From: Sorangium aterium
GTDB lineage: Bacteria; Myxococcota_A; Polyangia; Polyangiales; Polyangiaceae
NCBI RefSeq assembly: GCF_028368935.1
Contig: NZ_JAQNDK010000005.1
Span: forward strand, 62,001 to 126,000
Reading direction: 5' to 3'
Length of the DNA: 64,000 nt
Shown in pieces: positions 4,224 to 59,705 of the stretch. The notes under the pieces were generated by a model. That model was not told where the DNA came from, made no database searches, and was given only the letters and a program-made list of their open reading frames with translations. The position numbers and the translations under genes were made by a program. The number at the start of each line of letters is the position of its first letter. The first letter of the stretch is position 1.

Positions 4224-4428
4224 TGCCGGCCCGGGGGGCACGCGCGCGATCGGATGCACCTCCGGCGGCGGCAGTGGCGCGGCGGCGCGGCGGGCCCCTC
4301 GCCGCGCTGCCACACCACCGCCGCCGCCGCGCGCGCTGTGCTCTGCCTCGCCGCGCGCGGCCGGTCGCGTTGGCCTTTATGTTTGCAGGCCGCGCACTTC
4401 TGGTAGGGTAGGGCCTGTATCCTTCGCC

Positions 4429-5814
4429 ATGGCCTCCCCGGCGCGAGTCCTCGTTGTCGATGACAGCCCGACCATCCTGAAGGTCGTCAGCGCCATCCTC
4501 GCTCGCAATGGGTTCGACCCGACCGTGGCGCGCGACGGGCTCGCGGGGATCGAGCTGGTCAAGAAGGGGCCGAAGTACGATCTCGTCCTCCTCGATTTCG
4601 TGATGCCGAGGATGAACGGCTACGCCTTCTGCCGGGAGCTCCGCTCGAACCCGTCGCACCGCAACGTGCCCGTGGTCCTGATGAGCGCCAAGGGCGACAA
4701 GCTCAGGGGGCAGTTCGTCCAGCAGACCGGCGCCGTCGACGCGATCACCAAGCCGTTCGACGCGCGCGCGCTCGTCGCGGTGATCGAGGGCGCGCTCTCG
4801 AAGGCGGCGGAGGGGCGCGCGCGGCCCGTGCCCGAGGGCGCGAAGATGCCCGACGAGGACACGATCGCCGAGAGCGTGCGGCCGAGCCTCCTCGCCAGGA
4901 GCATGCGCCAGCGCGCCGGCGCGGAGTTCGCGCAGCAGCTGTCGACGGTGATGACGCCGGCGATCATGAGCCTCTCGATCGAGGCGCGGACCAACGAGGC
5001 CGCGGTGATGCAGGCGGTCGCCCGCGTGATGACGAGCGAGGTGGTCTCCAAGCTGACCCTGACGCTCCGCGATCTCGACGACACGCCCGCGGACGCGAAG
5101 GAGGTGATGAGCGGCGACGTCTCCGCGATCCCGCTCGCCGAGATCCTCCAGCTGCTCCAGATGCAGCGGCAGACGGGCGTGCTTCGGGTGACCACGAACC
5201 GCGCGTCGGTCACGATCTCGCTCCGCCAGGGGCTCATCGATCTGGTGCAGGCGCGCAACTCGTCGGACGAGTTCAAGCTGGGGCGCTACTTCATCGAGCG
5301 CGGGCTCCTGACGCGGGAGCGGCTCGAGGCGCTGCTCCGCGCGAAGCGGCCGCACGCCCTGCTCGGCCAGGTGCTCGTGGAGGCCGGCGTCGCGACGAAC
5401 GACGACCTCATCGCCGTGCTGGAGCGGCAGTCGAGCGAGCTCATCTACGAGGTGCTGCGCTGGCCGTACGGGCGCTTCTCGTTCACGCGCGAGCCCTTCC
5501 GCCCCGAGGTCGAGCAGGCGCACCTCGGCCTCCCGGTGTCCGCGCTGGTGCTCGAGGGGTTCCGGCGCGTCGACGAGTGGCGGCTCATGGAGGGGACGAT
5601 CAACTTCGACCAGGTGGTGGTCGTGGACCAGGTCGCGCTCGACGGCGTGGGCTCCGGCAAGCTGACGCGCATCGAGCAGCTCGTGCTCGGCGCGGTCAAC
5701 GGCTCGCGCACGGTGAACGAGGTGATCAAGGAGAGCGCGGTCGGCTCGTTCGACGCGATCAAGACGATCTACCAGTTCCTTCAGTCGCGGGTGCTGAGGA
5801 CCAGGGCGGCCTGA
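4429..5814 (+). CDS. Response regulator with receiver and DUF4388 (PATAN-type) domains
   Basis: 461 residues. Residues 1-125 form a CheY-like receiver: acidic pair DD in VLVVDDSP, phospho-acceptor Asp in VLLDFVMP, Thr/Ser-equivalent in LMSAKG, and Lys in AITKPFD. The middle (about 140-215) is probably helical and has no recognised domain. From about 225 a DUF4388 region (SAIPLAEILQLLQMQRQTG, LRQGLIDLVQA, then LGRYFIERGLLT and LLGQVLVEAG) continues toward the C-terminus. There is no DNA-binding or enzymatic output domain, so it probably acts through protein contacts. This architecture is common in myxobacteria and other deltaproteobacteria. Start ATG at 4429. It stands alone, with about 200 bp of non-coding DNA on each side. 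Confidence 0.85.
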   Translation: MASPARVLVVDDSPTILKVVSAILARNGFDPTVARDGLAGIELVKKGPKYDLVLLDFVMPRMNGYAFCRELRSNPSHRNVPVVLMSAKGDKLRGQFVQQTGAVDAITKPFDARALVAVIEGALSKAAEGRARPVPEGAKMPDEDTIAESVRPSLLARSMRQRAGAEFAQQLSTVMTPAIMSLSIEARTNEAAVMQAVARVMTSEVVSKLTLTLRDLDDTPADAKEVMSGDVSAIPLAEILQLLQMQRQTGVLRVTTNRASVTISLRQGLIDLVQARNSSDEFKLGRYFIERGLLTRERLEALLRAKRPHALLGQVLVEAGVATNDDLIAVLERQSSELIYEVLRWPYGRFSFTREPFRPEVEQAHLGLPVSALVLEGFRRVDEWRLMEGTINFDQVVVVDQVALDGVGSGKLTRIEQLVLGAVNGSRTVNEVIKESAVGSFDAIKTIYQFLQSRVLRTRAA

Positions 5815-6719: not shown

Positions 6720-7059
6720 GGCGCGCTCCGAGGAGCGAGAGCGCGGCGATGGCTAGCGGACACAGGAGGGCGAGGCCCCAGACGGCGCGCGGCCAGACCG
6801 GCGCGAGCAGGACGAACGCGCTCGCGGAGCAGAGGAGCGCCGCGAAGGGGACGAGGAGCGCCGCCGCGCCCGCCTCGGCTCGGCTCCACAGCCACACCGA
6901 CAGCGAGAAGAAGGCGACGGCCAGGGCCCGAGCCGAGGCGCGCCATTCGCGCCTCGCGCGCAGCCGCGCCGCGACGCCGAACGGCAGGCGCTCCGGCCGC
7001 GCCCCGTGGAGCAGCGCGAAGGCGAGGTACGCCGAGAGGACCGACGCTGTCTCAACCAT
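6712..7059 (-). CDS. DUF3325-type small membrane protein
   Basis: 115 residues. An N-terminal helix (SVLSAYLAFALLHG) is followed by a basic segment (ARLRARREWRASAR) and two or three more hydrophobic segments. This matches the layout of DUF3325 proteins, which accompany PepSY-type iron-siderophore reductases. The ATG at 7059 overlaps the 3' end of the PepSY gene by 8 bp, and the stop overlaps the start of the DUF3649 gene, so the three are probably translationally coupled. Biochemical function is unknown; an inner-membrane accessory role in siderophore iron release is inferred from context. Confidence 0.7.
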   Translation of the reverse strand: MVETASVLSAYLAFALLHGARPERLPFGVAARLRARREWRASARALAVAFFSLSVWLWSRAEAGAAALLVPFAALLCSASAFVLLAPVWPRAVWGLALLCPLAIAALSLLGARHG

Positions 7060-8659
7060 GGGTCGCCGTCTGCCGCCGGGCCACGAGCCCTGCCCCGCCG
7101 TGAGCCAGCGAGGGCGGCGGCGCGCCCCGCGTCGGCAGGAGCCGCGCCTCGGGTCGCGAGATCGCCCGGCGAAGCGCCCACGCCGAGGCGCAGAGCGCCG
7201 CGGCCGTCAGCAGGAGCGCGACGTCGACGGCGACGACGGCGCCGAGCTTCGGCCCCGCGCCGAAGAGCCCCGCCCCCGACCAGCGCGCCGCGAGCGCGGG
7301 GACCGGCAGCAGCAAGAGCCCCGCGAGCCCGAGCTGCCGCGACCAGAGGCGCCCGCCGTCCCGCGCGGCGAGCGCCCAGGCGACGCAGAGCCCGAGCGCC
7401 ACGAAGAACGTGAGCTCCTCGGCGACGACACGGCCGCTCCAGTCGAGCGGGAATGCCCGGCTCACGAGGAACAGCGCCGCGATCGCGACGACGGTCCCCG
7501 CGCCGAACCCCACGGTGAGCCGCGCGAGGAGGCGGTTGCCGACGCGCTCTTGCCGCGCCTCCCGTCGAGCGAGCCAGATCCAGTTGCCGGTGAGGATCGT
7601 GGCGCACGTCGCCAGGGCGAGCGCGAAGAACAGGATGCGAAGCGTGACGCCGCCGAAATTCGCGAAATGGAGCCCATAGATCCAGCGAATCACGCCGCTG
7701 CGCCCGCCCTCGGCGCCCGGCGCGTCGAGCGAGAGGACCGCGCCGTCGACCGCCCGCAGGCGCACGATGCTGCGCGAGAACGGCACGCCCTCGATCGATC
7801 CACGGATATCGACGGTGCCGCTGTCGAGGCCGTGGTGCCGGACGGAGAACACCTCCGGCACGAGCCCGGGCGCGGCGGCGCGCGCGCGGGCCAGGTGCTC
7901 GTCCAGCGTCAGGCCGCGAGCGGGCGTCCCGCGCGCCGGCTCGTCCGCAAAGGACGCTCCCCAGGCCACCTGGTCCGCTCGACCAGCGTCTCCGCCGAGT
8001 ACGGGATCCGTGAACACCGGCACGAGCAACCCCAGGAACACGAAGAACGCTCCGGTGTAAGCGAAGAGGACCTGGAACGGCAGGCCCATCACGCCGAGCA
8101 CCTTGTGCATGTCCGACCACAGGACACGGCGCGTCTTGTCCGGCCGGAACTGATGAAACTGCCGGACGATGTCCTTCAGGTGGATGAGCACGCCGGTCGC
8201 GAGCGCGAGCAGGAGCGCGACACACAGGAGGCCGGCCACATAGAAGAGCCACACGCCGGTGACCCTGTGCCAGAGGTAGTGCAGCTCGAAGAGGAAGTCG
8301 GACAGCCGCTCGCGCTCGGGCACGAGCGGCTCCTCTACCCACCGCGAGACCCGCTCACCCTGAGAGAAGTAGAGGAGCCGCGCGACGCCCAGCCCGCCCT
8401 CCGGCGGATAGAGCCAGAGCTGCTCGGGCGTCGTCCCCGCGGCGGCGAGCCCCTGATCGAGCGTGGCCTGGAGCCCCACCTGCTCGATCGAGGAGCGCTG
8501 CTGGGTCAACGGCTCCTCCCACACCTCGAGTTGCCTCCGGAAGAGCGCGATCCCCCCCGACAGGAACATCACGTAGAGCAAGAGCCCACCGATCACGCCG
8601 ACCCACGCGTGTACGTCCCAGAAGGTCGTGAAGGCATGGCGGGAGAGCTTCTTGGCCAT
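7052..8659 (-). CDS. PepSY-associated transmembrane protein (FpvG-like ferric-siderophore reductase candidate)
   Basis: 535 residues. The N-terminus reads FTTFWDVHAWVGVIGG followed by a membrane helix. A periplasmic PepSY-like region comes next, then HYLWHRVTGVWLFYVAGLL and later helices containing SDMHKVLGV and YGLHFANFGG, with conserved-looking His residues near membrane faces. C-terminal hydrophobic segments complete a fold seen in PepSY-TM proteins. In Pseudomonas the related FpvG reduces ferri-pyoverdine in the periplasm. Here the gene sits between an MxcI-like lipoprotein and DUF3325/DUF3649 genes, so the same role for the local siderophore is inferred. Start ATG at 8659, with an AAGGTGA ribosome site just upstream. 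Confidence 0.82.
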   Translation of the reverse strand: MAKKLSRHAFTTFWDVHAWVGVIGGLLLYVMFLSGGIALFRRQLEVWEEPLTQQRSSIEQVGLQATLDQGLAAAGTTPEQLWLYPPEGGLGVARLLYFSQGERVSRWVEEPLVPERERLSDFLFELHYLWHRVTGVWLFYVAGLLCVALLLALATGVLIHLKDIVRQFHQFRPDKTRRVLWSDMHKVLGVMGLPFQVLFAYTGAFFVFLGLLVPVFTDPVLGGDAGRADQVAWGASFADEPARGTPARGLTLDEHLARARAAAPGLVPEVFSVRHHGLDSGTVDIRGSIEGVPFSRSIVRLRAVDGAVLSLDAPGAEGGRSGVIRWIYGLHFANFGGVTLRILFFALALATCATILTGNWIWLARREARQERVGNRLLARLTVGFGAGTVVAIAALFLVSRAFPLDWSGRVVAEELTFFVALGLCVAWALAARDGGRLWSRQLGLAGLLLLPVPALAARWSGAGLFGAGPKLGAVVAVDVALLLTAAALCASAWALRRAISRPEARLLPTRGAPPPSLAHGGAGLVARRQTATHG

Positions 8660-8707: not shown

Positions 8708-9973
8708 TCATCGCACCTTCGCCAGACCGTGCAGGTACCCCGGCGCCGTCAGGCCGAGCTTCGGGCCGCCCTCGGCCGTGAGCTCGATCAGCGTGCTCTC
8801 CGTGGAGCCGTTCTTCTCGTCGATCGTGAAGACCCGGCCATCGACCTCGAAGAAGGAGACGTTGGCGGGCGAGGGGGCCAGATCCGGGATCTCCTTGGCC
8901 TCGTTCGTCGCTGTATCCCACCGCCACCAGCGCCACGCCGGCTGGCTCGTGATCTGAAAGGTCTTGGTCTCCTCGTCGATCGTGGCGAGACTTTCCTCGA
9001 ACACCCGGAGGAAGAGGCTGTCCCTGCCCGCGGGGATGGGATCACCCACGATCGCGCCGCCGGCCAGCTCGCCCAGGCTCAGGGCGAAGTCCGGGTCGAA
9101 GGCGTCCGCGTCCTTCAGGACGCGCAGCGCGCAGGGCTCGGTCTCCAGCCGCTCGACGTGATAGGACGCCCCCGCGAGCGCCGAGCTCACGAAGTAAGCG
9201 TCGCCGGAGGCCGTCTCGACGGACTGCGTGATCCCGGCGCACCGGTCGTCGACGTCGAAGCGCACGAGGGTGTCGGTCTCGGTGTCGATCACGACGAGCC
9301 CCGTCTCCGGGACGATGGTGTCGGTCGTCTGCCAGTCGAACCACCCCACCGAGAAGAGCAGCGTCTTGCCGCGCAGGACCGAGCCATATCCGTACACCGC
9401 CAGGTGGCCATCGCGGTGGGTGTCCGGCAGCGGGATCGTCCCTTCTACCTCCATCGTCGTGGGGTTCCACACGACGATCTGCTCGCCAGCGCGATCCGGA
9501 TGGTACGCCTTCGTCGGAGAGATGATGTAATTCGTTTGCCAGAGGTCCTGCACGCCGAAGGGCTGGAGGCTGATCGCGTCTCCCTTGACGAGCGCGTCGC
9601 CGTTGCCGAGCGTGTAATGCGAGATCGTCGGCGACTGGCCGTCACCGATGCCGAACCAGCCCTGCCCCTCGAACGCAAACAGCCTCGCCGATCCGGGGAT
9701 CTCGAGCGCCTGGGTCGGGTCGACCGGCGTGCCTGCCTCGAGCGACGACACCACGTGGAAGTAAGAGTTGGTCGCGGTGTCGTCCCAGACGCGCGTGGCG
9801 ACCACGAACGCGTCGCCGCCGTTGCCACCACCACCGGTGCCGCCCTGCTCGACGGGGCTCGACGTCTCGTCGTCCGCGCAGCCGCCGCCGAGCGCGCCGG
9901 TCAGGAGCACGAGCGCGAAGGCCGTCGCGCTCGTCCGGTTCGATGGCCGCTGCTTCCGCTGAATCACACGCAT
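8708..9973 (-). CDS. Secreted lipoprotein, MxcI-like, probably beta-propeller
   Basis: 421 residues. The N-terminal basic stretch and hydrophobic segment end in a lipobox (ALGGGC), followed by a Gly-rich linker (GGTGGGGNGG), so the protein is predicted to be lipid-anchored in the periplasm or outer membrane. The remainder is beta-rich with repeated short strand patterns (LVVIDTETDTLVRF, SLATIDEETKTFQI, RVFTIDEK), suggesting a propeller. It lies directly behind the TonB receptor gene (53-bp gap) and before the PepSY gene. That is the position of mxcI next to mxcH in myxochelin uptake loci, as I recall them. The probable role is ferric-siderophore capture or hand-over; the molecular function is not established. 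AGGAGGAG precedes the ATG at 9973. Confidence 0.65.
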   Translation of the reverse strand: MRVIQRKQRPSNRTSATAFALVLLTGALGGGCADDETSSPVEQGGTGGGGNGGDAFVVATRVWDDTATNSYFHVVSSLEAGTPVDPTQALEIPGSARLFAFEGQGWFGIGDGQSPTISHYTLGNGDALVKGDAISLQPFGVQDLWQTNYIISPTKAYHPDRAGEQIVVWNPTTMEVEGTIPLPDTHRDGHLAVYGYGSVLRGKTLLFSVGWFDWQTTDTIVPETGLVVIDTETDTLVRFDVDDRCAGITQSVETASGDAYFVSSALAGASYHVERLETEPCALRVLKDADAFDPDFALSLGELAGGAIVGDPIPAGRDSLFLRVFEESLATIDEETKTFQITSQPAWRWWRWDTATNEAKEIPDLAPSPANVSFFEVDGRVFTIDEKNGSTESTLIELTAEGGPKLGLTAPGYLHGLAKVR

Positions 9974-10026: not shown

Positions 10027-12816
10027 TCACATCTCCAGCGTCGCCTTGGAGAACAGCGTCCGCCCGGGTCGCTGGGTACCGTAGAAATCGAAGGCCGGTT
10101 CGTTGGTGAGGTTGTGCGCCTCGATGGTGAAGCTCACCGTGCGCGGCGCGTCGCGCGCGACGTAGGTCAGCGCGAGCGAGTGCAGGAGCTGCGAGGGCAC
10201 CCTGGCCTTGGAGTCGGGCCGCCCCCAGTTCTCGAAGCCTAGGTAGAACCCGTGCACGTAGCGCGTATCCCAGGTGAGCGAGATCGCGTCGCGCGGCGCG
10301 GCGACCTCCTGGAGCTGCAAGCGCGCCGAGCCGTTGGCGAAGAGCCACGGCCGGTTCGGCATCCGTTCGCCCTCGGAGCGAGCAAAGTTCCCCTCGTCCG
10401 ACGTCTTGCGGAAATCGTCGTAGGTGATGTTGCCGTCGAGGGCGACGTGCTCTCCCGGCGATGTCCAGCCCGCGGCGGCCTCGACGCCCAGCGACCGGGC
10501 CCCCGAGACGTGGATGTACTGGATCGAGTCCGTGCGGTTGTTCAGCACGATGAGCCGCTCGACCGCGCGGAGAAAGCCGTTCGCGTCGAGCCGCCACGCG
10601 CCCCACGCGGTGTCGCGCGCGTCGATCGTGAATCCGAGGTTTCCATTGTGGCTCGTCTCGGGCTTGAGCTCGAGGTTGGGGACGATCATCGCCCCGTCGC
10701 CGAACACCTCGACGGGCCGCGGCAGCCGCGTCGCCCACTCGTACGACGCCTTGGCGTAGAGCCACCCGGAGAAGCGATAGCGAAGGCCATCCCCGACGCC
10801 GAGGCGATGGGTGTCGCGCTCTTGCCGGTCGAAGCGCCCGTCGAGCCCCGGGAGCCGCCCCTTCATGCGGAGCAGCTGCACGTAGTCCTTCACGAAGGCG
10901 CTGTTCTCCAGGCGATCGTCGAACAGGTTGAGCTGGTGCTCGACGCCGTGCACCCAGGTGAACAGGCTGTGTCCGCCCCTGAGCTGCTCGCGGTCGTCGT
11001 TGTCCAACCTGCGCTCTTCCGCCGTGCGCGCGATGAACGTCGGAGACACGGAGAGCTGCAGCGCGTGCTCCGGGTGGGGCCGGTAGCGGAGGTTCAGGCG
11101 GCCGAGGCCGCTGTGCTCCCGGAACACCCGGTCCCGGGGGCGCGGCCCGTCCTCGCCTGGGACGGTGCGCTTGCTGATGCAGCGGCCGGACCAGGCGTAG
11201 ACGCACTCGCTGACATCGAGGAAGGTGGCGCGCCCGTACGTGTACCCGAGCAGCGCTTCGAGGGCGACGCCTCGGCCGATCCCGTGCTCGTACTGGAGCG
11301 TCGCGCCCGGCACGGTCTCGCCGTTCGTGACCTCGCCATAAGGCGTCTTCATGACGCCGAACTTGTGCTGATGCTCCTTGTCGTAGTCGGTGACGAAGGC
11401 GCGCAGGAGCAGCCGCCGCGCCCAGGGCCGATTCACGAAGCCGAGCTCGGCGCTCCCGCCCGCCGCCCTATAGGCGTCGTGGAAGCGGCGAACACGGGTG
11501 GGCTCGGAGTCCTCTCGTCCGGTCGTCTCGTTCGCCAGCACGACGTCGACCGGATAGTCGTTCTTCGCATAATCGAAGAAGCCGTTCACGCGGGTGAAGA
11601 AGCCGCTCGGCTCGTGCAGGTGCCTCGCCGTGAGGGAGAGCCGGTGGGTGTCGTAAGAGCCGACCTCGTAGGACGCCGCGCCGTGGGTGCCGCGGACGTC
11701 CCGATCGGTCACCAGGTTGACGGCTCCACCCAGCGCGTCGGCGCCGAAGCGCACCGGCACCACGCCGCGGTAGATCTCGACGCGCTCGACGAGGTTCACA
11801 GGCACGTTCGAGACGCCGAACGGGTAGCCTGCGAGATCGAGCGGCACGCCGTCGATGAAGAAGCGGATCTGTTCGTCCGTGAGGCCGTTCAGCGAGAAAC
11901 GCGCCCACGACCCGAGCCCCGCGCTCCGCCGCACGCCGACGCCCTGGGTGCGGGCGAGCACCTCGCCCAGATCGGCGGTCCTCCGCTGCGCCTGCTCGGT
12001 CTCGATGACCGTGATCGCCTGCGCGGATTGCCGGAGGCGCTCGGCCATCGCGGCGCCGCGCACGGTCACCTCGGCGGGCGCTGCAGTGTTGGCCGGGTCG
12101 GGCCCTGTGGCCGGCGGAGGAGCTGCGGTGTTGGCCGGGTCGGGCCCTGTGGCCGGCGGAGGAGCTGCGGTGTTGCTGGCCTGGTCGGGCCCTGTGGCCC
12201 GCGGGAGCGTGGTCGCCGCTATGCCCGTGGCCGCGACCGCGCTTCCGCCCGTCGCCGGGGAGGTGGGCTCGGCCGGGGCCTCCTCGGGGAGCCGGAACTC
12301 GTAGCTGTAGAGGATCCGTACAGCGATCGGCGTGCCGCCCCGGCGCGCCGGCGTGAAGCGGGATCGGAGCACCGCGGCGCGGGCGGCGTCGTCGAAGCCA
12401 TCGCCGATTGGACTCGTGACCTCGGCCTCGGTCACGCGCCCCGTCGCGTCGATCAGGAGCTTCAGCACGACCTTGCCCTCCCGTCGTGCCGCCCGGGCCT
12501 CCCGGGGGTACTCGGCCTCGACGAGCTCGAGCAGCCGCGGCGGCTCGATCCGGGGGCCTTCAGCGCCGGACGGTGAGCGCTCCGGATCGGGCGAGCCGGT
12601 GGCAGGCGCGTCCACGCGCGGCTCTCGGTCCCCCCCCGCGCGCTCGGGCGTGCCTCCGTCCTGAGCGTGCGCCGGTGCCTGCAGGCCGAGCAGCAGGAAG
12701 GTCAACACGCCTGCAAGCGGGCCTCGAAGCGCGAGAGCACCTCGCGCCACCGCGTCCACCTTGAACCTGGCCCGCGGCTCGGGGCGCGGCGGTTGGGGAA
12801 CCGAACTGACCAACAT
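10027..12816 (-). CDS. TonB-dependent siderophore receptor with fused N-terminal TonB-like domain (MxcH-like)
   Basis: 929 residues. A signal peptide ends near Ala51 (QAPAHA). Residues about 90-165 form a TonB C-terminal-like domain (VEAEYPREARAARREGKVV, IDATGRVTEA, RSRFTPARRGGTPI). A Pro/Ala repeat linker follows (about 190-235). The plug spans about 240-360 (LGEVLARTQGVGVRRS, RVEIYRGVVPVRFGADALGG). The rest is a 22-strand-type beta barrel that ends in ATLEM rather than a clear terminal Phe. It should import ferric siderophore through the outer membrane. Fusion of TonB and receptor is a feature I recall for MxcH, the myxobacterial myxochelin receptor. It is the first gene of the uptake operon, divergent from the NRPS operon, with a Fur-like box about 25-50 bp upstream. 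Confidence 0.88.
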   Translation of the reverse strand: MLVSSVPQPPRPEPRARFKVDAVARGALALRGPLAGVLTFLLLGLQAPAHAQDGGTPERAGGDREPRVDAPATGSPDPERSPSGAEGPRIEPPRLLELVEAEYPREARAARREGKVVLKLLIDATGRVTEAEVTSPIGDGFDDAARAAVLRSRFTPARRGGTPIAVRILYSYEFRLPEEAPAEPTSPATGGSAVAATGIAATTLPRATGPDQASNTAAPPPATGPDPANTAAPPPATGPDPANTAAPAEVTVRGAAMAERLRQSAQAITVIETEQAQRRTADLGEVLARTQGVGVRRSAGLGSWARFSLNGLTDEQIRFFIDGVPLDLAGYPFGVSNVPVNLVERVEIYRGVVPVRFGADALGGAVNLVTDRDVRGTHGAASYEVGSYDTHRLSLTARHLHEPSGFFTRVNGFFDYAKNDYPVDVVLANETTGREDSEPTRVRRFHDAYRAAGGSAELGFVNRPWARRLLLRAFVTDYDKEHQHKFGVMKTPYGEVTNGETVPGATLQYEHGIGRGVALEALLGYTYGRATFLDVSECVYAWSGRCISKRTVPGEDGPRPRDRVFREHSGLGRLNLRYRPHPEHALQLSVSPTFIARTAEERRLDNDDREQLRGGHSLFTWVHGVEHQLNLFDDRLENSAFVKDYVQLLRMKGRLPGLDGRFDRQERDTHRLGVGDGLRYRFSGWLYAKASYEWATRLPRPVEVFGDGAMIVPNLELKPETSHNGNLGFTIDARDTAWGAWRLDANGFLRAVERLIVLNNRTDSIQYIHVSGARSLGVEAAAGWTSPGEHVALDGNITYDDFRKTSDEGNFARSEGERMPNRPWLFANGSARLQLQEVAAPRDAISLTWDTRYVHGFYLGFENWGRPDSKARVPSQLLHSLALTYVARDAPRTVSFTIEAHNLTNEPAFDFYGTQRPGRTLFSKATLEM
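12086..12208. repeat. Tandem 42-bp repeat in receptor linker
   Basis: Two virtually identical 42-bp units begin at 12086 and 12128. A third, partly diverged unit with a 3-bp insertion begins at 12170. They encode a repeated 14-residue Pro/Ala-rich motif (PPPATGPDPANTAA) in the periplasmic linker between the TonB-like domain and the plug. The unit is a multiple of three, so copy-number change would preserve the frame and alter only linker length. Confidence 0.9.
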
Positions 12817-12838
12817 GTCCGAACGTTTCGGTACCCAA

Positions 12839-12865
12839 GATGAAAACAGAATTCAATTTCATTCG
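12839..12865. promoter_or_regulatory. Fur-like operator upstream of the TonB receptor gene
   Basis: An A/T-rich island in very GC-rich DNA, 12841-12860 reading TGAAAACAGAATTCAATTTC, with TGAAA...TTTCA symmetry. It lies 25-50 bp upstream of the receptor ATG at 12816. An almost identical element (TGAAAATAGAAATCAATTTC) sits at 58410. Assignment to Fur is inferred from base composition, symmetry and the iron-uptake context. Confidence 0.55.
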
Positions 12866-44400: not shown

Positions 44401-47400
44401 GCGCGGCGCTGCCCGAGCCGGAGCGGGCCGGCGCGCAGGAGGCGAGCGGCTTCGTCGCGCCCCGGAACGAGGTCGAGGCCACGCTCGCGCAGATCTGGGC
44501 CGACATCCTGCGCGTGGAGCGGGTCGGCATCCACGACAACTTCTTCGCCCTCGGCGGCGACTCCATCCGGAGCCTCCAGGTCATCGCGCGCGCCAACCAG
44601 CGCGGCATCAAGCTGAGCCCGAAGGCCCTGTTCGACCACCCCACCGTGGCCGGCGCCGCGGCCGTCGCGGTCTCCACAGCGGCCCCGGTGAAGGCTGCCG
44701 CTGCCCCGGAAGAGGCGCCCGCACGCCCGGGGAACGCGGGGGGGCCGCAGGGAGAGCAGCGCGAGGCGACGCCATCCATGTCGACGTCAACGTCGCCGTC
44801 GCAGACAACCTCTCTGCCAACATCGCAGTTCCCGCTGAGCGGCCTCACCGAGGACGAGATCGCGCGCTGCCTGCCGGACGCGTCGGGCCTCGATGACGTC
44901 TACCCGCTCTCGCCGATGCAGGAGGGCATGCTCTTCCACACCCTCCTGAACCCGGGCTCCGGCATCTACCTGATGCAGCAGCACTACGTGTGGCACGGCC
45001 CGCTCGACGCCGGCCTCATCGTCGAGGCCTGGCAGCGGGTGGTGGCGCGGCACCCCATCCTGAGGACCTCCTTCGCCTGGAAGGACCTCGAGCGGCCTGT
45101 CCAGGTCGTCCACCGCCGGATCGACCTCTCCGAGGTCATCCACGTCCTCGACTGGCGCGATCAGACCGAGGCCGCGCAGGAGAAGCGCCTCGCCGAGGCG
45201 CTCGAGGCCGAGCTCGCCGCCGGGCTCGACATGACCCGCGCGCCGCTGATGCGGATCCGGCTGATCCGCATGAAGGACGACGCGTATCGCATCGTCCGGA
45301 GCTTCCACCACATCCTCACGGACGACTGGTGCTTCTCCGTGATGATGATGGAGTGCCTGTCGTATTACGAGGCCTTGAGCGAGGGCCGCTCGCTGGAGCT
45401 GCCCCAGCCGCGCCCGTACCGCGACTACATCGCCTGGCTCGCGCGACAGGACCTCTCGGCGGCCGAGCGGTTCTGGCGCGAGGAGCTCCGCGGCTTCGCG
45501 GAGCCGACGCCCCTCGGCGTGGAGCGCGCCGCCGAAGGCGGCGCGGCGCCGCTCGCGGGGGCCGGCATCAGCGACGAGCACGTCGAGCTGCCCCCGGCCG
45601 TGAGCGAGGCGCTCCTCCGCCTCTCGCACCAGCACGGGCTGACGCCCAACACCCTCGTGCAAGGGGCCTGGGCGCTCCTCCTGAGCCGCTACAGCGGCCA
45701 GCGCGACGTCGTGTTCGGCGTGACCGTGGCGGGCCGACCGACCGATCTGCCCGGCGTGGAGACGATCGTGGGGCTGTTCATCAACAGCCTTCCGCTCCGC
45801 GTCCGCGTGTCGCCCGAGCAGCCGCTCCTCCCGTGGCTCAAGGGCCTCCTCGCCCACAACTACCGTATCCGCGAGTTCGAGTATCCGCCGCTCGTGCACA
45901 TCCAGCGGTGGAGCGAGCTCCCCAAGGGACAGGCGCTGTTCAACAGCCTCCTCGTCTTCGAGAACGCGCCGAAGGATCCCCGCCTCGGGGAGCAGGTCGG
46001 CGCCGTCCGCCTCTCGTACGAGCAGGACCGGGTCCACACGAACTACCCGATGACGGTCGTGGCGTACCCGGGCGAGACGCTGGGGATCCGGCTCTCGTAC
46101 GACCGGCGCTGGTTCGAGCCCGACGCCGTCGAGCGGATGCTGGGCCACCTGGTCCAGCTGCTGTCGGAGATGGCCGCCCGCCCGGAGGCCCGGCTTGGCG
46201 ACCTCGCGCTCCTCGGCGAGCGCGAGCGCCGGCAGCTCCTGCGGGAGTGGAACGACACGACGAGCGCGGAGCCCGCCGCGCCCGGCTACGTGGCGCTCTT
46301 CGAGGCCCAGGCGCGGAGGACGCCGGACGCGGACGCTGTGACGTGCCGCGGGCGCCGGCTCACCTACGCGGCCCTGAACCGCGCCGCGAACCACGTGGCC
46401 CACGCGCTGCGGGCCCAGGGCGTCGGTCCGGACACGGTCGTCGCCGTGCTGGAGTCGCGCGACATCGAGCTGGTCGTCGCGCTGCTCGGCGTGCTCAAGG
46501 CCGGCGGCGCGTACCTCCCGCTCGACCCCCACCAGCCGGAGCAGCGCATCGCCGGCGTCGTCGAGGCCAGCCGCGCGCCCGTGGTCGTGACCTCGGACGC
46601 GTGGGTCCCGCGGCTCGGGAAGGCGCTCGCGCGCCTGCCGGAGGCGGCGCGGCCGCGGTTCGTGACCCGCGAGCGGCTCGCCGCGCAGCGCGGGCCTGCG
46701 CCCGAAGGCGATCTCCCGCAGCTCGCCGGCCCCGGTCACCTCGCGTACGTGATCTACACGAGCGGATCGACCGGCGTGCCGAAGGGCGCGATGGTCGAGC
46801 ACGCGGGGATGCTCAACAACGTGTGGGGCAAGATCCCCGCGCTGGAGCTCGGCCCCTCGGACGTCATCGGCCAGACAGCGTCCCAGTGCTTCGACATCTC
46901 GGTGTGGCAGCTCCTGACGGCGCTGCTCTGCGGCGGCCGCGTGCACATCGTCCCCGACGAGATCGTGGGCGATCCACAGCGCCTGCTGGAGGAGGCCGAG
47001 GCGCAGGGGATCACGGTCCTCGAGCTGGTCCCGTCGCTGCTCGCGGAGCTCGTCTCCGCGGACGCCGACGCGCCGCGCCTCTCGCGCCTCCGGTGGATGC
47101 TGCCCACCGGCGAGGCGCTCACGCCCGACCTCTCCCGCCGGTGGTTCGCGCGGTACCCCCGCGTCCCCCTGATGAACGCCTACGGCCCGGCCGAGTGCGC
47201 CGACGACGTGGCGCTCCACGCGATCACGGCGGCCCCCGGGCCCGAGGTCGTCCACATGCCCATCGGCCGGCCCGTGCCCAACGTGAGGCTCCACGTCGTG
47301 ACGGGCGACGATCTCGCGCCCGTCGGCGTGACCGGCGAGATCTGCGTCGCGGGCATCGGCGTGGGGCGCGGCTACCTGAACGACCCCGCCAGGACCGCCG

Positions 47401-53581: not shown

Positions 53582-54630
53582 ACTCTGGCAAGACTGCACC
53601 GATCCCAGGGCCGGGCGCCCCGCACCGCAAGGCCATCACGGTGTCCGACGGCACGCTGGTCCGCGAGCGGATGTGGCACCCGGAGCGCCCGTTGCCGCTC
53701 GTGATCGAGCCGGCCGTCGCGGGCGTCGATCTCGTCGAGTGGGCCGCGAGGCACCGCGAGGCCCTGGAGCAGAAGGTCCTCCAGCACGGCGCCATCCTGT
53801 TCCGCGGGTTCACCTGCAAGACCGTCGAGCGGTTCGAGCAGACCATCGCGTCCCTCTCGCCTGGAGCCCTGGAGTACATGTTCCGCGCGTCGCCGCGCAC
53901 GCGGGTGGGGGGCAACATCTACACGTCGACCGACTACCCGGCCGACCAGAAGATCTTCCCGCACAACGAGCACTCCTACTCGCCGCGCTTCCCTCTGCGG
54001 TTGTTCTTCTACTGCCATCAGCCCTCGGAGACGGGCGGCGAGACCCCCATCGGCTCCACCCGGGAGGTCCTCCGGCACATCCGCCCCGAGATCCGGGAGA
54101 AGTTCCGCCAGAAGAGGGTCCTGTATGTCCGCAACTACGGGGACGGCTTCGGCCTGCCCTGGCAAACCGTCTTCCAGACCGAGGATCGCGGCGAGGTGGC
54201 GTCCTACTGCGCCTCGGTGGGTATCCAGATCGAGTGGAAGCCGGACAATCGCCTTCGCACGACCCAGGTAGGGCCGGCGATCGTGCGCCACCCGCGCACC
54301 GGGGAGGAAGTCTGGTTCAACCACGCCACGTTCTTCCACGTGAGCACGTTGCCCCCGGACGTCCGCGGCTCGCTCACCGCGAGCTTCGTCGACGACGAGC
54401 TGCCCACGAACACCTTTTATGGCGACGGCAGCCCGATCGAGCCCGAGGTGCTGGAGGAGCTCCGGGGAGCGTACCTCTCTTCGCTCGTGAAGTTCCTCTG
54501 GCAGCAGGGAGACATCCTGTTCATCGACAACATGCTGTGTGTCCACGGCCGTGAATCCTACGGTGGCAAGCGCGCCATCCTCACGGGGATGGCAGAGGCG
54601 TACTACGCGAAGGATCTCGAGCAGAGCTAG
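53578..54630 (+). CDS. SyrP/TauD-type Fe(II)/2-oxoglutarate aspartyl beta-hydroxylase (second copy)
   Basis: 350 residues. Iron ligands His129 and Glu131 (PHNEHSYSP) and His323 (CVHGRESYGG), with HGAILFRGF upstream and a basic GGKRAIL segment downstream. It is clearly homologous to the hydroxylase at 26369-27403 over its whole length (shared YVRNYG, LPWQ, VFxT, RHPRTGE/HPRTGE and YGDGSPIE elements) but well diverged. The two are therefore old paralogues rather than a recent duplication, and may serve different carrier proteins or give different stereochemistry. It is coupled to the terminal NRPS by ATGA overlap. The expected substrate is carrier-bound Asp or Asn. Confidence 0.87.
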   Translation: MNSGKTAPIPGPGAPHRKAITVSDGTLVRERMWHPERPLPLVIEPAVAGVDLVEWAARHREALEQKVLQHGAILFRGFTCKTVERFEQTIASLSPGALEYMFRASPRTRVGGNIYTSTDYPADQKIFPHNEHSYSPRFPLRLFFYCHQPSETGGETPIGSTREVLRHIRPEIREKFRQKRVLYVRNYGDGFGLPWQTVFQTEDRGEVASYCASVGIQIEWKPDNRLRTTQVGPAIVRHPRTGEEVWFNHATFFHVSTLPPDVRGSLTASFVDDELPTNTFYGDGSPIEPEVLEELRGAYLSSLVKFLWQQGDILFIDNMLCVHGRESYGGKRAILTGMAEAYYAKDLEQS

Positions 54631-54721
54631 CTCACGGCATCGGTCCGCGCGGGAGCGCGGCCCGCGTTCCACGGTCGAGGAGCGCGTGAATCAAGGGACG
54701 TTTCGCAACAGGGAGTACCCG

Positions 54722-56176
54722 ATGAGTCTGTCTACAGCCTCCAGTTTCTCCGCGGTGGACCCGTTGACGCCGGCCCCCAAGGCGCCCCTCCACGCGGGCC
54801 TCGCCGCGGAGCTCGGCGAGCGCCACCGGCGGCGCGCGCTGTACGAGCTCGGGGATCACCCCTTGCTCGAGCGGCAGCGGCAGCACGAGTCGAACGCCCG
54901 CTCGTACCCGCGGCGGCTGCCGCTGGCGCTCTCGCGCGCGCAGGGCGTGTATGTGGAAGACGTCGAGGGGCGCGTGTTCCTCGATTGTCTGGCCGGGGCC
55001 GGCACCCTGGCGCTCGGGCACAACCACCCGGCGGTCACCGACGTCCTTGTGCGGACGCTGCACTCCGGCCTACCGCTCCACACGCTCGACATCACCACGC
55101 CGGTCAAAGATCGCTTCACGCAGGACGTGCTCGGCGCGCTGCCGGCGCCCTTTGCCCACCATGCGCGCATCCAGTTCTGCGGCCCCACGGGCGCGGACGC
55201 CGTGGAAGCTGCGCTGAAGCTGGTCAAGCTCGCGACCGGGCGCGGCACGGTGCTGGCCTTTCAGGGCGCGTACCACGGCATGACGCAGGGCGCGCTCACC
55301 CTGATGGGCAACCTCGGGCCCAAGGCGGCGCTCGGCTCCAGCCTGAACGGCGTGCAGTTCCTGCCATATCCGTACGAGTACCGCTGCCCGTTCGGGCTCG
55401 GCGGCGGCGCCGGCATCGCGGCATCGCTCGCGTACATCGACAACCTGCTGTCCGATCCGGAAAGCGGCGTGCCCAAGCCTGCTGCCATCATCGTCGAGGC
55501 GGTGCAGGGCGAGGGGGGCATGATCCCGGCGCCGGTCGCCTGGCTGAAGGGGTTGCGGGCGCTGGCGACGCGGCATGACATCCCGCTGATCCTCGACGAG
55601 GTGCAGACGGGCTTCGGCCGCACAGGGCGCATGTTCGCGTTCGAGCACGCCGGCATCGAGCCGGACGTGCTGGTCCTGTCGAAGGCGCTTGGCGGCGGGC
55701 TGCCGCTCTCGGTCGTTGCGTACCACGAGCGCTTCGACACCTGGCGTCCGGGCGCCCACGCCGGCACGTTCCGCGGCAACCAGCTCGCGATGGCGGCGGG
55801 CTCGGTCACGCTGTCGGTGCTGCGCGCGGAGCGCCTCGACGCGGCGGCCGCGGAGCTCGGCGCGCGGCTCATGGCGCAGCTCGCCGCGCTCGCCAAGGAG
55901 CACGCGTGCATCGGCGACGTGCGCGGGCGCGGCCTGATGATCGGCGTGGAGCTCGTGGACGCGGCGGCCGCGCCCGACGCGCTCGGGGCGCGCCCTGCCC
56001 ACCGCGAGCTCGCCGGGCGCGTGCAGCGCGAGTGCCTGCGGCGGGGGATGATCGTGGAGCTCGGCGGCCGCCACGGCAGCGTGGTGCGGTTCCTGCCGCC
56101 GCTCGTCATCACGGCGGCGCAGATCGACGAGGCGGCGAGGATCTTCGGTCAGGCGCTGGTAGCGGCCCTTCCGTAG
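54722..56176 (+). CDS. Diaminobutyrate-2-oxoglutarate aminotransferase (PvdH/EctB-like)
   Basis: 484 residues. A class III PLP-dependent aminotransferase: the PLP lysine is Lys321 in VLVLSKALGGG, with FCGPTGADAVEAALKL, FQGAYHGMTQG, IILDEVQTGFGRTG-type and GTFRGNQLAM elements. It converts aspartate-4-semialdehyde to L-2,4-diaminobutyrate, the expected building block for the acidic-pocket A domain of the second NRPS. Start ATG 54722, preceded by AGGGAG. A longer in-frame extension from 54539 overlaps the hydroxylase gene and is rejected. It is the last gene of the operon. A partial, decayed copy of its 3' end lies at 58505-58690. Confidence 0.92.
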   Translation: MSLSTASSFSAVDPLTPAPKAPLHAGLAAELGERHRRRALYELGDHPLLERQRQHESNARSYPRRLPLALSRAQGVYVEDVEGRVFLDCLAGAGTLALGHNHPAVTDVLVRTLHSGLPLHTLDITTPVKDRFTQDVLGALPAPFAHHARIQFCGPTGADAVEAALKLVKLATGRGTVLAFQGAYHGMTQGALTLMGNLGPKAALGSSLNGVQFLPYPYEYRCPFGLGGGAGIAASLAYIDNLLSDPESGVPKPAAIIVEAVQGEGGMIPAPVAWLKGLRALATRHDIPLILDEVQTGFGRTGRMFAFEHAGIEPDVLVLSKALGGGLPLSVVAYHERFDTWRPGAHAGTFRGNQLAMAAGSVTLSVLRAERLDAAAAELGARLMAQLAALAKEHACIGDVRGRGLMIGVELVDAAAAPDALGARPAHRELAGRVQRECLRRGMIVELGGRHGSVVRFLPPLVITAAQIDEAARIFGQALVAALP

Positions 56177-56249
56177 CCGAGCAGGCCCAGGCCTGTCTCG
56201 CGCGTCGGTCTTCGCCCGAAGCATTCACTCGAATTGATTGGGAAGATTC

Positions 56250-56296
56250 ACAGGGAGACGGGGAGTAAAATCCCATTCATCTCCCCGCCTCCCTGT
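56250..56296. terminator. Hairpin between convergent aminotransferase and asnB genes
   Basis: Arms ACAGGGAGACGGGGAG (56250-56265) and CTCCCCGCCTCCCTGT (56281-56296) pair at 15 of 16 positions around a 15-nt loop that begins TAAAATCC. The position between two convergent stops suits a bidirectional terminator. There is no long T-run. Confidence 0.5.
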
Positions 56297-56383
56297 CTCC
56301 CTGTTCAATTTCCCGATAAAAGCGATGCGGAGACCCACCGCTTCGCAGGAGGGGAGACGACGATATCTCCCCCAGGGCTCCTC

Positions 56384-58057
56384 CTACAATGCCGCGTTAT
56401 GGACGCCCGTCACCGCGCGCCCAGACGGGTCCGCCGCGGCGGCGAAGCTGGCGTCCCAGGCGATCGCCGCGGGCGACGAGCACGCGATGGACTTGCCGCC
56501 AGGCACCGTCTCCGCGCAGGCCTGTCCCGGATAGAACTGCTCGAACAGGCTGCGGTAATGGTACGCTTCCTTGGTCCGCGGCGGATTGATGGAGAAGCGC
56601 CTCTCGGCCGCGGCCAGCTCGCGATCGCTGACCCGCGCCTCGGCGTACGCCTTCAGGCCGTCGATCCAGCCGTAGCCCACGCCGTCGCTGAACTGCTCCT
56701 TCTGCCGCCACAGGATCTCCTTCGGCAGATAGCCTTCGAACGCCTCGCGCAGCACCGCCTTCTCGATGCGGCCTTTGCCGGCCATCTTGTGCCTGGCGTC
56801 CATCCGCATCGCCACGTCCAGGAACTCCACGTCCAGGAAGGGCACCCGCGCCTCCACGCCCCAGGCCATCATCGACTTGTTGGCGCGCAGGCAGTCGTAG
56901 CTGTACAGCGCGTCCAGCTTGCGTATCAGCTCCTCGTGGAACTCGCGCGCGTTCGGCGCCTTGTGGAAGTACAGGTAGCCGCCGAAGATCTCGTCCGAGC
57001 CTTCTCCCGACAGCACCATCTTCACGCCCATGGCCTTGATGCGCCTGGCCAGCAGGTACATGGGCGTGGACGCCCGGATGGTGGTGACGTCGTAGGTCTC
57101 GATGTGGCGTATCACCTCGGGCAAGGCGTCCAGGCCTTCCTCGAAGGTGTACTCGAACCCATGGTGCACCGTGCCCAGCGCCCCGGCCGCGACGGCCGCG
57201 GCGGCCAGGTCGGGCGAGCCTCTCAGACCGATGGCGAACGAGTGCAGGCGCGGCCACCACGCCTCCGACGCGCCGTCGTCCTCCACGCGCTTGCGGGCGA
57301 AGCGCGCGGCCACCGCGGCCACCAGGGAGGAGTCCAGGCCGCCCGACAGCAGCACGCCATACGGCACGTCGGTCATCAGCTGGCGGCGCACCGCGCGCTC
57401 GAAGGCCTCGCGCAGCTCTCGCTCGTCCACGTCGACGCCTTCCACCGCTGCATAGTCGCGCCACGGCCTGCGGTAATACTGCGTGAGCTCGCGCGTTGCG
57501 CTGTCGTAGCAATGGCCCGGCGGGAACTGCGCGACATCGGCGCAAAGGCCGGAGAGCGCCTTCATCTCCGACGCGACGCACAGCCTCCCCTCGCGGTCGT
57601 GCCCCCAGTACAGCGGGCACACGCCGATGGGGTCGCGCGCGATGAGGGCGCGCTGCCGGCGCTTGTCCCACAGGGCGAAGGCGAAGATGCCGTTGATCCG
57701 GTTGAGGAACGATGTCGGTGCGTCTTCCCGGTACAGCGCGTTGATCACTTCGCAATCGGAGCCGGTCTGGAAGGAATAGGGTTGCTCCAGCTCCTTTTTC
57801 AGCTCGCGGTGGTTGTAGATCTCCCCGTTGACGGCCAGCGCCAGCTCGCCGTCGGCGGAGCGCAGCGGCTGCGAGCCGCCGGCGGGGTCGACGATGGCCA
57901 GGCGCTCGTGCACCAGGATGGCGCCCTCGTCGACGTACACGCCGCTCCAGTCGGGCCCCCGGTGGCGCTGTCGCTGAGAGAGCTCCAGCGCCTGTCGTCG
58001 CAGGGCCTGCCGGTCGTCGCGGGGATGCAGACCGAAGATGCCGAAAATGGAACACAT
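56384..58057 (-). CDS. asnB: Glutamine-dependent asparagine synthetase, AsnB type
   Basis: 557 residues. The N-terminal glutaminase has nucleophile Cys2 (MCSIFGIFG) and RHRGPDWSG, LAVNGEIYNH and FQTGSDCEV. The synthetase half has the PP-loop GVLLSGGLDSS and VLSGEGSDEIFGGYL. The whole chain resembles E. coli AsnB closely, including THE-like HIETYDVTTIRASTPMYL and WRQKEQFSDGVGY. The C-terminus carries VPGGKSIACSS. It makes Asn from Asp, Gln and ATP, and could supply Asn for the Asx-type module. ATG 58057 is preceded by CAGGAG. It is convergent with the NRPS operon. Its upstream region holds the receptor-gene relic and Fur-like box, so iron control is possible but the distance is about 350 bp. 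Confidence 0.93.
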   Translation of the reverse strand: MCSIFGIFGLHPRDDRQALRRQALELSQRQRHRGPDWSGVYVDEGAILVHERLAIVDPAGGSQPLRSADGELALAVNGEIYNHRELKKELEQPYSFQTGSDCEVINALYREDAPTSFLNRINGIFAFALWDKRRQRALIARDPIGVCPLYWGHDREGRLCVASEMKALSGLCADVAQFPPGHCYDSATRELTQYYRRPWRDYAAVEGVDVDERELREAFERAVRRQLMTDVPYGVLLSGGLDSSLVAAVAARFARKRVEDDGASEAWWPRLHSFAIGLRGSPDLAAAAVAAGALGTVHHGFEYTFEEGLDALPEVIRHIETYDVTTIRASTPMYLLARRIKAMGVKMVLSGEGSDEIFGGYLYFHKAPNAREFHEELIRKLDALYSYDCLRANKSMMAWGVEARVPFLDVEFLDVAMRMDARHKMAGKGRIEKAVLREAFEGYLPKEILWRQKEQFSDGVGYGWIDGLKAYAEARVSDRELAAAERRFSINPPRTKEAYHYRSLFEQFYPGQACAETVPGGKSIACSSPAAIAWDASFAAAADPSGRAVTGVHNAAL

Positions 58058-58191
58058 GGGTTGGCTCCTGAAGGGTTGTGAATCGGTCGCGGCGTCGCGC
58101 GTATTCTGGGCTGAAGACCGAAGAGACCCTTGTGCGTGGACGCGGGCTCCGCAGCGCGAAGGGCTCGATAGGCCGCCGATCTGGCCAGTGA

Positions 58192-58228
58192 GCCTCCCCT
58201 CGCGAGAGCCGAGCTCACGAGGGGAGGC
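58192..58228. repeat. Perfect 11-bp inverted repeat
   Basis: GCCTCCCCTCG (58192-58202) and CGAGGGGAGGC (58218-58228) are exact inverted copies around a 15-nt spacer. It could form a stable hairpin in the asnB leader region or be a remnant terminator. There is no T-run on either strand. Confidence 0.6.
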
Positions 58229-58253
58229 ATCGCCGGAGCCCAGCTGGATCGAC

Positions 58254-58385
58254 CGCGGCAGCAGGAAGGTCGACGTACGTGCAAGCGGGCGCTCGAAGCG
58301 CGAGAGGACCCCGTGGTGCCGCGTCCACCCGTGGCCGAGCCCGGGGGTCCGAGCATTGGGGTCGAGGAACCGAGCGGACGGCCAT
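58254..58385 (-). pseudogene. Relic of the TonB-receptor gene 5' end
   Basis: Translated from ATG at 58385 on the minus strand, the first 31 residues match the start of the intact receptor (gene 10027-12816) at spaced positions: M.V.SVP, PRAR, VDA, RG, then LALR.P. One inserted base after LALR shifts the frame; the DNA similarity continues for about 30 bp (GACCTTCCTGCTG in both) and then stops, and the shifted frame reaches TGA soon after. Everything downstream of the signal-peptide region is missing. The Fur-like box upstream is also shared, so this is a decayed second copy of promoter plus gene start. Confidence 0.85.
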
Positions 58386-58407
58386 GCCCGACGGCTTCGG
58401 TGGCTCA

Positions 58408-58434
58408 GATGAAAATAGAAATCAATTTCATTTC
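58408..58434. promoter_or_regulatory. Fur-like box next to the receptor relic
   Basis: 58410-58429 reads TGAAAATAGAAATCAATTTC, nearly identical to the box at 12841 and at the same distance from the homologous ATG. It may be non-functional or may have been captured by asnB, which lies 350 bp away in the right orientation. Confidence 0.5.
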
Positions 58435-58504
58435 TGAGCGAGGTACCGCGACGTATGAATATTCCAGTCGCACTTGGGGGTTGAAGGGTCGGCGGGCCGC
58501 GGAT

Positions 58505-58690
58505 CTCGGTGGTCGCGTGTCACGAGCGATTCGACACCAGGGCGCGAGTGCCTGCGGCGGGGATGATCGTGGAGCTCGGCGGCCCCCACGACAGCGTGGT
58601 GCGCTTGCGGGTGCCGCTCGTCATCACGGCGGCTCGGATCGACGAGGTGGCAAGGATCTTCGGTCAGGCGCTGGCGGCGACTTCTCTGTA
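58505..58690 (+). pseudogene. Relic of the diaminobutyrate aminotransferase 3' end, internally deleted
   Basis: 58505-58540 matches 55708-55742 of the intact gene (TCGGT..T.GCG, ACGAGCG, TTCGACACC). 58542-58690 then matches 56026-56176 through to the stop, where TAG has become TAC. About 285 bp between these blocks is missing. The translated remnant reads HERFDT then MIVELGGPHDSVVR and ARIFGQAL, plainly the aminotransferase C-terminus. No start and no active-site Lys remain. Confidence 0.9.
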
Positions 58691-58817
58691 CTTGTCGTTC
58701 GGGCGAGATAGCCGCTTCTTTCCTCGGTGTCGGCCACCCGGCACGTGCGCCGGGTCAGGAAGCGCTCATCGACGCCGCGGGCTTTGGCGTCGAGCTATCG
58801 AGGGTGGGGGCGCGTGT

Positions 58818-59705
58818 TCACGAGCCGGTCGTGGAGAGCAGCTCCCGGGCGTCGCTGATCACGGCGGCCCGGCGGATCCAGCGGTCCAGCTCGTCGAGGT
58901 CGGTGCTCGCGAGGACGCGTCCCCGCACCTCCGCGGGGACCTCGATCCCACGGGCTTCGAGGAAGGCGAGCACGGCCTGCGCCTTGGCTTCGAGGCTCCC
59001 CTCCTGCCGACCTTTCGCCACGTAGCTGCGCGCGAATTCGCTCTGAAACTGGTAACCGCTCTTCATCATCGCCTCCAACCTCCGCCTCGCCGCTGCGTTC
59101 AGCGAGGATAGCACCAGGTCCCCGTAGACGGCCCGGCGCTCCTCATCGAGCCCGTCCGCCGCCCCCGAAAAAAAGGCCACGCCGATCGCCTCCGCCGCCT
59201 CGCTCTGTCCGTGCGCCATCGCCGAGAGCACGGCCACCTCGGGCGCCGCCTTCGCTTGCTCGGCGTCGGTGACGACCGGGACGCCCTTGGGCCCGAGCAC
59301 CAGCGGCGTCAGCGTCCATCCGGGATGACCCGTATCGATCGGCCGCGCGCTCCACCGCGCCATCGCCGCGTCGATCGTCACGACCAGCAGCCCGGTTGGG
59401 CAACGATGGCGGGCGCGCGTCTGGGTGACGTACACCGGCCAGACGTAGGGCTTGTCCGGGTCCACCCCCAGCTGGACCTCGACCACGATCGCCATCGCGG
59501 GCTGCTGCTGCTCGCCGACCAGCAGCACGACAACGACATCGGCGCGGCGGTCGGAGGGCACGATCTCGGTGAAGTCGGAGGACTCGACGCGCGCCTCCGT
59601 GAACGTCGGGACCGGATGGCCGAGCGCGTCGTGCAGCATCTCGGCGGCCAGCGTCGGCCGGTTCTTGAACAGCTCCACGAGGGCTTCATGGGTCACTGAG
59701 GGCAT
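58818..59705 (-). CDS. PD-(D/E)XK nuclease-family transposase-like protein (Rpn-like)
   Basis: 295 residues. The N-terminus MPSVTHEALVELFKNRPTLAAEML resembles a family abundant in Sorangium and cyanobacteria. ADVVVVLLVG followed by IVVEVQL gives the D...E-x-Q core of a PD-(D/E)XK fold. A C-terminal FARSYVAKGRQEGSLEAKA is typical of the Rpn/PDDEXK transposase-like group. Such proteins are implicated in recombination-promoting nuclease activity; mobility of this copy is not demonstrated and no flanking inverted repeats were seen. It sits beside the relic region, so it could have contributed to the rearrangement. ATG 59705. Confidence 0.7.
   Translation of the reverse strand: MPSVTHEALVELFKNRPTLAAEMLHDALGHPVPTFTEARVESSDFTEIVPSDRRADVVVVLLVGEQQQPAMAIVVEVQLGVDPDKPYVWPVYVTQTRARHRCPTGLLVVTIDAAMARWSARPIDTGHPGWTLTPLVLGPKGVPVVTDAEQAKAAPEVAVLSAMAHGQSEAAEAIGVAFFSGAADGLDEERRAVYGDLVLSSLNAAARRRLEAMMKSGYQFQSEFARSYVAKGRQEGSLEAKAQAVLAFLEARGIEVPAEVRGRVLASTDLDELDRWIRRAAVISDARELLSTTGS

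Follow-up and report, generated by a model that had tools for sequence, protein, structure and literature searches.

Decayed remains of siderophore-cluster ends beside the intact cluster of Sorangium aterium WIWO2, possibly a collapsed second copy, with a promoter box facing an asparagine synthase gene

Tandem duplication activates horizontally acquired genes (PMC11111574), and in those systems the duplication junction can set a native promoter upstream of the acquired gene, an arrangement that resembles the scar described here beside a siderophore cluster of the soil bacterium Sorangium aterium WIWO2. In contrast with those systems, the duplication at the scar would have occurred in Sorangium and is read back from a relic, most of the duplicate having later been deleted. 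The second group for comparison is the relics of duplicated or lost biosynthetic clusters. Like these, the scar consists of decayed cluster ends beside an intact copy and carries internal deletions and frameshifts; unlike the usual cluster relic, it keeps an intact promoter box directed at an acquired gene. As a relic the scar is of a known kind, a product of cluster duplication and of ordinary genome evolution, and the possible re-use of its promoter is the twist.

The window, that is the whole stretch of 64,000 nucleotides that was analysed (contig NZ_JAQNDK010000005.1, positions 62,001 to 126,000), contains both the intact cluster and the scar. BLASTN of 58000-59200 against the window resolved ~540 bases at 58150-58690 into four pieces of the adjacent cluster, with cluster order and orientation kept. 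The features are as follows.

7052-8659, minus strand: PepSY_TM gene of the intact cluster
8708-9973, minus strand: intact orf8708, after the receptor gene; weak DUF4374 match, conserved in all relatives
10027-12816, minus strand: intact MxcH-like TonB-dependent receptor gene, source type of the relic (NF038079, 1224 bits, above cut-off)
54539-56176, plus strand: intact diaminobutyrate aminotransferase gene, the last cluster gene (NF005393, 749 bits)
56384-58057, minus strand: AsnB, a glutamine-hydrolysing asparagine synthase (NF006949, 873 bits)
58150-58257, minus strand: orf8708 relic (DUF4374-like periplasmic protein), mid-gene part only; 73% identical to 9123-9228, E 7e-8
58258-58385, minus strand: relic of the receptor 5' end (MxcH-like TonB-dependent receptor); relic plus Fur-like box (58258-58432) 75% identical to 12690-12863, E 2e-27
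58410-58431, unstranded: Fur-like box of the scar's receptor promoter, the top-scoring such site in the window
58433-58489, unstranded: 57 bp at the junction of the 42.8-kb gap, without match in the own or related clusters
58490-58541, plus strand: first piece of the diaminobutyrate aminotransferase relic; 83% identical to 55693-55744, E 6e-9
58542-58690, plus strand: relic of the aminotransferase 3' end; 58542-58674 is 91% identical to 56026-56159, E 1e-48

The orf8708 piece abuts the receptor piece and the two aminotransferase pieces abut each other; the stretches skipped between matched pieces are 3,461, 42,829 and 281 bp. All BLASTN matches lie on the same strand as, and in the order of, the ends that flank the intact operon, so that the first-pass annotation, which had recognised the receptor relic with its box, the aminotransferase relic and their relative orientation, was right on all three; it was also right on the order of box and aminotransferase relic, but the distance between them is about 59 bp, not about 70 bp. 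That annotation nevertheless understated the scar, having overlooked the orf8708 piece and the fact that the promoter faces AsnB. Identity of the aligned ends is above background, the score of each scar piece being reached by 0 of 1000 dinucleotide shuffles. The orf8708 piece was also recovered against the whole genome (E 4.5e-6), and it matches the orthologues in five Sorangium genomes. Other copies of the scar pieces were absent from the rest of the genome (13,472,481 bp, 7 contigs), and further relics from the 6 kb to the left and about 22 kb to the right of the scar. Comparison of 56177-56384, 58050-58160, 58428-58495 and 58670-58822 with the own and related clusters revealed no relic of PepSY, of the following orf or of the NRPS, and the flank 58675-58840 gave nothing convincing elsewhere in the genome.

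Between the ends, the intact cluster carries NRPS/PKS genes, a PvdQ-like acylase and TauD-type oxygenases; a tRNA call at 46051-46132 lies inside an NRPS gene, was not reported by Rfam and was set aside. Two further MxcH-type receptors of this genome score above the NCBIfam cut-off (L198, L199). WIWO2 reportedly lacks the myxochelin cluster (PMC10435759), and the siderophore cluster here may therefore be the main siderophore source of the strain. Rightward, the aminotransferase gene is followed by AsnB, the scar and a minus-strand gene at 58818-59705. A strong inverted repeat at 56250-56296, between the convergent aminotransferase and AsnB genes, is likely a two-way terminator. The 58818-59705 gene, without a Pfam match above cut-off, is one of a family that gives about 20-46 matches in each large Sorangium genome; it was considered as a mobile cause of the scar and rejected, for although the family is multi-copy, no repeat ties the gene to the scar.

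As coding sequence the scar is dead: reading frames are shifted, a stop codon is gone, and three internal deletions have removed 3.5 kb, 42.8 kb and 0.28 kb, in line with the decay described in the first-pass annotation. By alignment and translation, the receptor relic has one extra base, giving a +1 frameshift; it retains the ATG at 58385-58383, and has GCA where the intact gene has its probable downstream start, a GTG some 20 codons inside the called ORF; this GTG is likely the true start because the part resembling a signal peptide, which relatives conserve, starts at this codon. The aminotransferase relic lacks one base in addition to its 281-bp internal deletion, and reads TAC in place of the TAG stop. 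Changes found only in the relic amount to 20/106 positions (18.9%) in the orf8708 piece, 15/128 in the receptor coding piece and 15/185 (8.1%) in the aminotransferase pieces, and the orf8708 piece is more diverged than the aminotransferase pieces (p=0.009). Because of this unequal decay, a single duplication followed by uniform decay is not a neat explanation; the difference could stem from hybrid copies, from two steps or from a divergent donor.

We favour, by a modest preference, the reading that the scar is the remnant of a collapsed second copy of the cluster, the 43-kb middle of which we infer. A second copy, placed head to tail and running from inside orf8708 to the aminotransferase, would have shrunk by at least three deletions, of 3.46 kb in orf8708/receptor, of about 42.8 kb between the receptor promoter and a point within the aminotransferase, and of 281 bp within the aminotransferase, with point decay alongside. 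The receptor promoter with its Fur-like box would have survived, directed through the relics into AsnB, and the position of AsnB between the copies would mean that this gene inserted at the junction or that the second copy lost it at its far end. The pieces are colinear and on the correct strands, none is at chance level and none has another genomic copy; moreover, the newly found orf8708 piece extends this colinearity, as a collapsed tandem copy predicts. This leftmost piece begins inside orf8708, and PepSY has left no remnant; both would follow from a duplication junction within orf8708. Derived bases common to the scar and the own aminotransferase, and a promoter type shared with the own receptor, also point to the collapsed copy, and further support comes from a parallel in So0157-2, from the scar box, which is the best in the window and unaltered, and from the published duplication process (PMC11111574). 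The collapsed duplicate first proposed for this locus is supported in part, in that both ends are duplicated, colinear and decaying. What counts against it is that no piece of the 43-kb interior survives at the scar, that 57 bp between the halves are unmatched, that decay is unequal, that the tree grouping of the two aminotransferases has a support of 0.73, and that AsnB between the copies demands entry at the junction or loss from the far end; a search for two clusters in one genome likewise found none among the five related genomes, which are few.

These relatives are five Sorangium genomes including So ce26, So ceGT47, So0008-312 and So0157-2 (the genome G004, which we take to be that strain), the fifth (G002) being fragmentary. 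Close aminotransferases occur once each in So ce26, So ceGT47, So0157-2 and So0008-312, and four derived bases set the scar and the own gene apart from these four genomes; two of those bases lie at the extreme end of the gene, where the alignment is less sure. The promoters of the scar, of the own receptor and of a second copy in So0157-2 are of one type, agreeing at 12 bases that differ in the other type; the latter is found in the remaining relatives and at the So0157-2 receptor. All copies of orf8708 lie at the same distance (68-71%) from the scar piece, and among themselves they are 86-95% alike.

In So0157-2 (L041 9772-16150) a complete PepSY gene, preceded by a second-type promoter of its own, lies between receptor and NRPS, and at the old PepSY place only the first 142 and last 108 bases are left, 94% and 91% identical to the full copy. 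This collapsed copy shows that duplication of the receptor end followed by internal deletion, leaving the receptor promoter before another gene, also occurred elsewhere in the genus. Both cases have the same promoter type and one copy collapsed to its ends, and in both the receptor genes were deleted so that the promoter now stands before the next gene, PepSY in So0157-2. The So0157-2 duplication differs in lying inside the cluster, in facing a cluster gene rather than AsnB, and in having no aminotransferase piece. The So0157-2 cluster occupies the corresponding locus, bordered on one side by tRNA-Ser/response-regulator and on the other by the 58818-type gene, a sigma factor and AcrB; a JmjC/cupin-like gene (by sequence reading) lies there between the aminotransferase and the 58818-type gene. 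A short relic of this JmjC/cupin-like gene was seen in So0008-312 (L049 3200-3380), and in So ce26 (L043 9609-15300) the cluster is at the same tRNA-Ser locus, inverted, with the aminotransferase end facing the tRNA.

The ancestry of the flanks and of the cluster bears on a second explanation, in which the scar derives from the cluster that originally resided here and the intact one arrived later from another Sorangium and settled beside it, with no duplication within the genome. The left-flank genes (2274-5814) of WIWO2 are nearest to So0157-2 (94.8%), whereas its aminotransferase is 93.3% identical to that of So ceGT47 and 88.2% to that of So0157-2, and the cluster genes (7052-56176) are closest to So ceGT47 or So ce26, not So0157-2, with moderate bootstrap supports. 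This disagreement suggests that the cluster was probably exchanged in some lineage, and it keeps the resident explanation alive. The scar promoter also fits the second So0157-2 copy at least as well as the own promoter (63/76 against 57/76 positions). However, the nearest sequence to the aminotransferase relic is the intact gene of the same genome (91%), with shared derived bases, and the scar and the own receptor have promoters of one type; a resident origin is accordingly, in our judgement, unlikely but worth serious consideration.

We give still less credence to a third explanation, that only the two ends were copied, as a receptor-operon duplicate and a separate aminotransferase fragment linked by repeat-mediated rearrangement, and never the 43-kb middle. 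It would account for the differing decay of the two halves and for the 57 bp of unmatched filler between them, and the So0157-2 duplication is indeed confined to the receptor-operon end, but it requires that two independent events placed the ends next to each other in the exact order and orientation of the cluster. Chance similarity, or a conserved element common to unrelated promoters, is dismissed as next to impossible, for although high G+C inflates weak matches, the shuffles, the genome search and the colinear order rule it out.

With a matrix built from the receptor-side and NRPS-side boxes of the cluster in the own and related genomes, the scar box left out, the scar box ranks first in the window at 45.3 bits (NRPS-side box 44.6, intact receptor box 40.6), and it scores 43.4 bits when the own receptor box is left out as well. 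It carries 0/22 relic-only changes against 35/234 in the adjoining coding relics (one-sided p=0.034, for a single sequence), which is suggestive only of conservation of the box while neighbouring coding sequence decayed. The promoter is oriented toward AsnB, about 350 bases away, and its direction of transcription passes through the relics; no terminator-like site was found on the minus strand between the two, and a strong hairpin at 58192-58228 has no T run. Sigma-70-like hexamers were not found in the scar promoter, a consensus that Sorangium promoters may not fit. A role for RNA structure in the leader was rejected, the fold being no better than shuffles (z -1.2). AsnB has no close match in the five other Sorangium genomes searched, and relatives at 62-67% identity occur in 8 of 183 other genomes of the order, a distribution suggesting that it was gained here or often lost elsewhere; no AsnB upstream region common to other Polyangiales was found. 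That the scar promoter is re-used for AsnB is a tentative proposal. Equally speculative is its fuller form, in which the scar still functions: tandem duplication would have set a Fur-controlled receptor promoter before the newly acquired AsnB, selection would have retained only this promoter while the rest of the 43-kb copy was deleted, and asparagine synthesis would have joined the iron-starvation response. If it serves at all, the scar is now probably a candidate iron-responsive upstream region of AsnB.

The scar preserves a legible record of the way in which large siderophore clusters may duplicate and collapse in Sorangium. Should its promoter still be active, the scar would illustrate, in nature, how duplication and subsequent deletion can bring an acquired gene under a regulated promoter.
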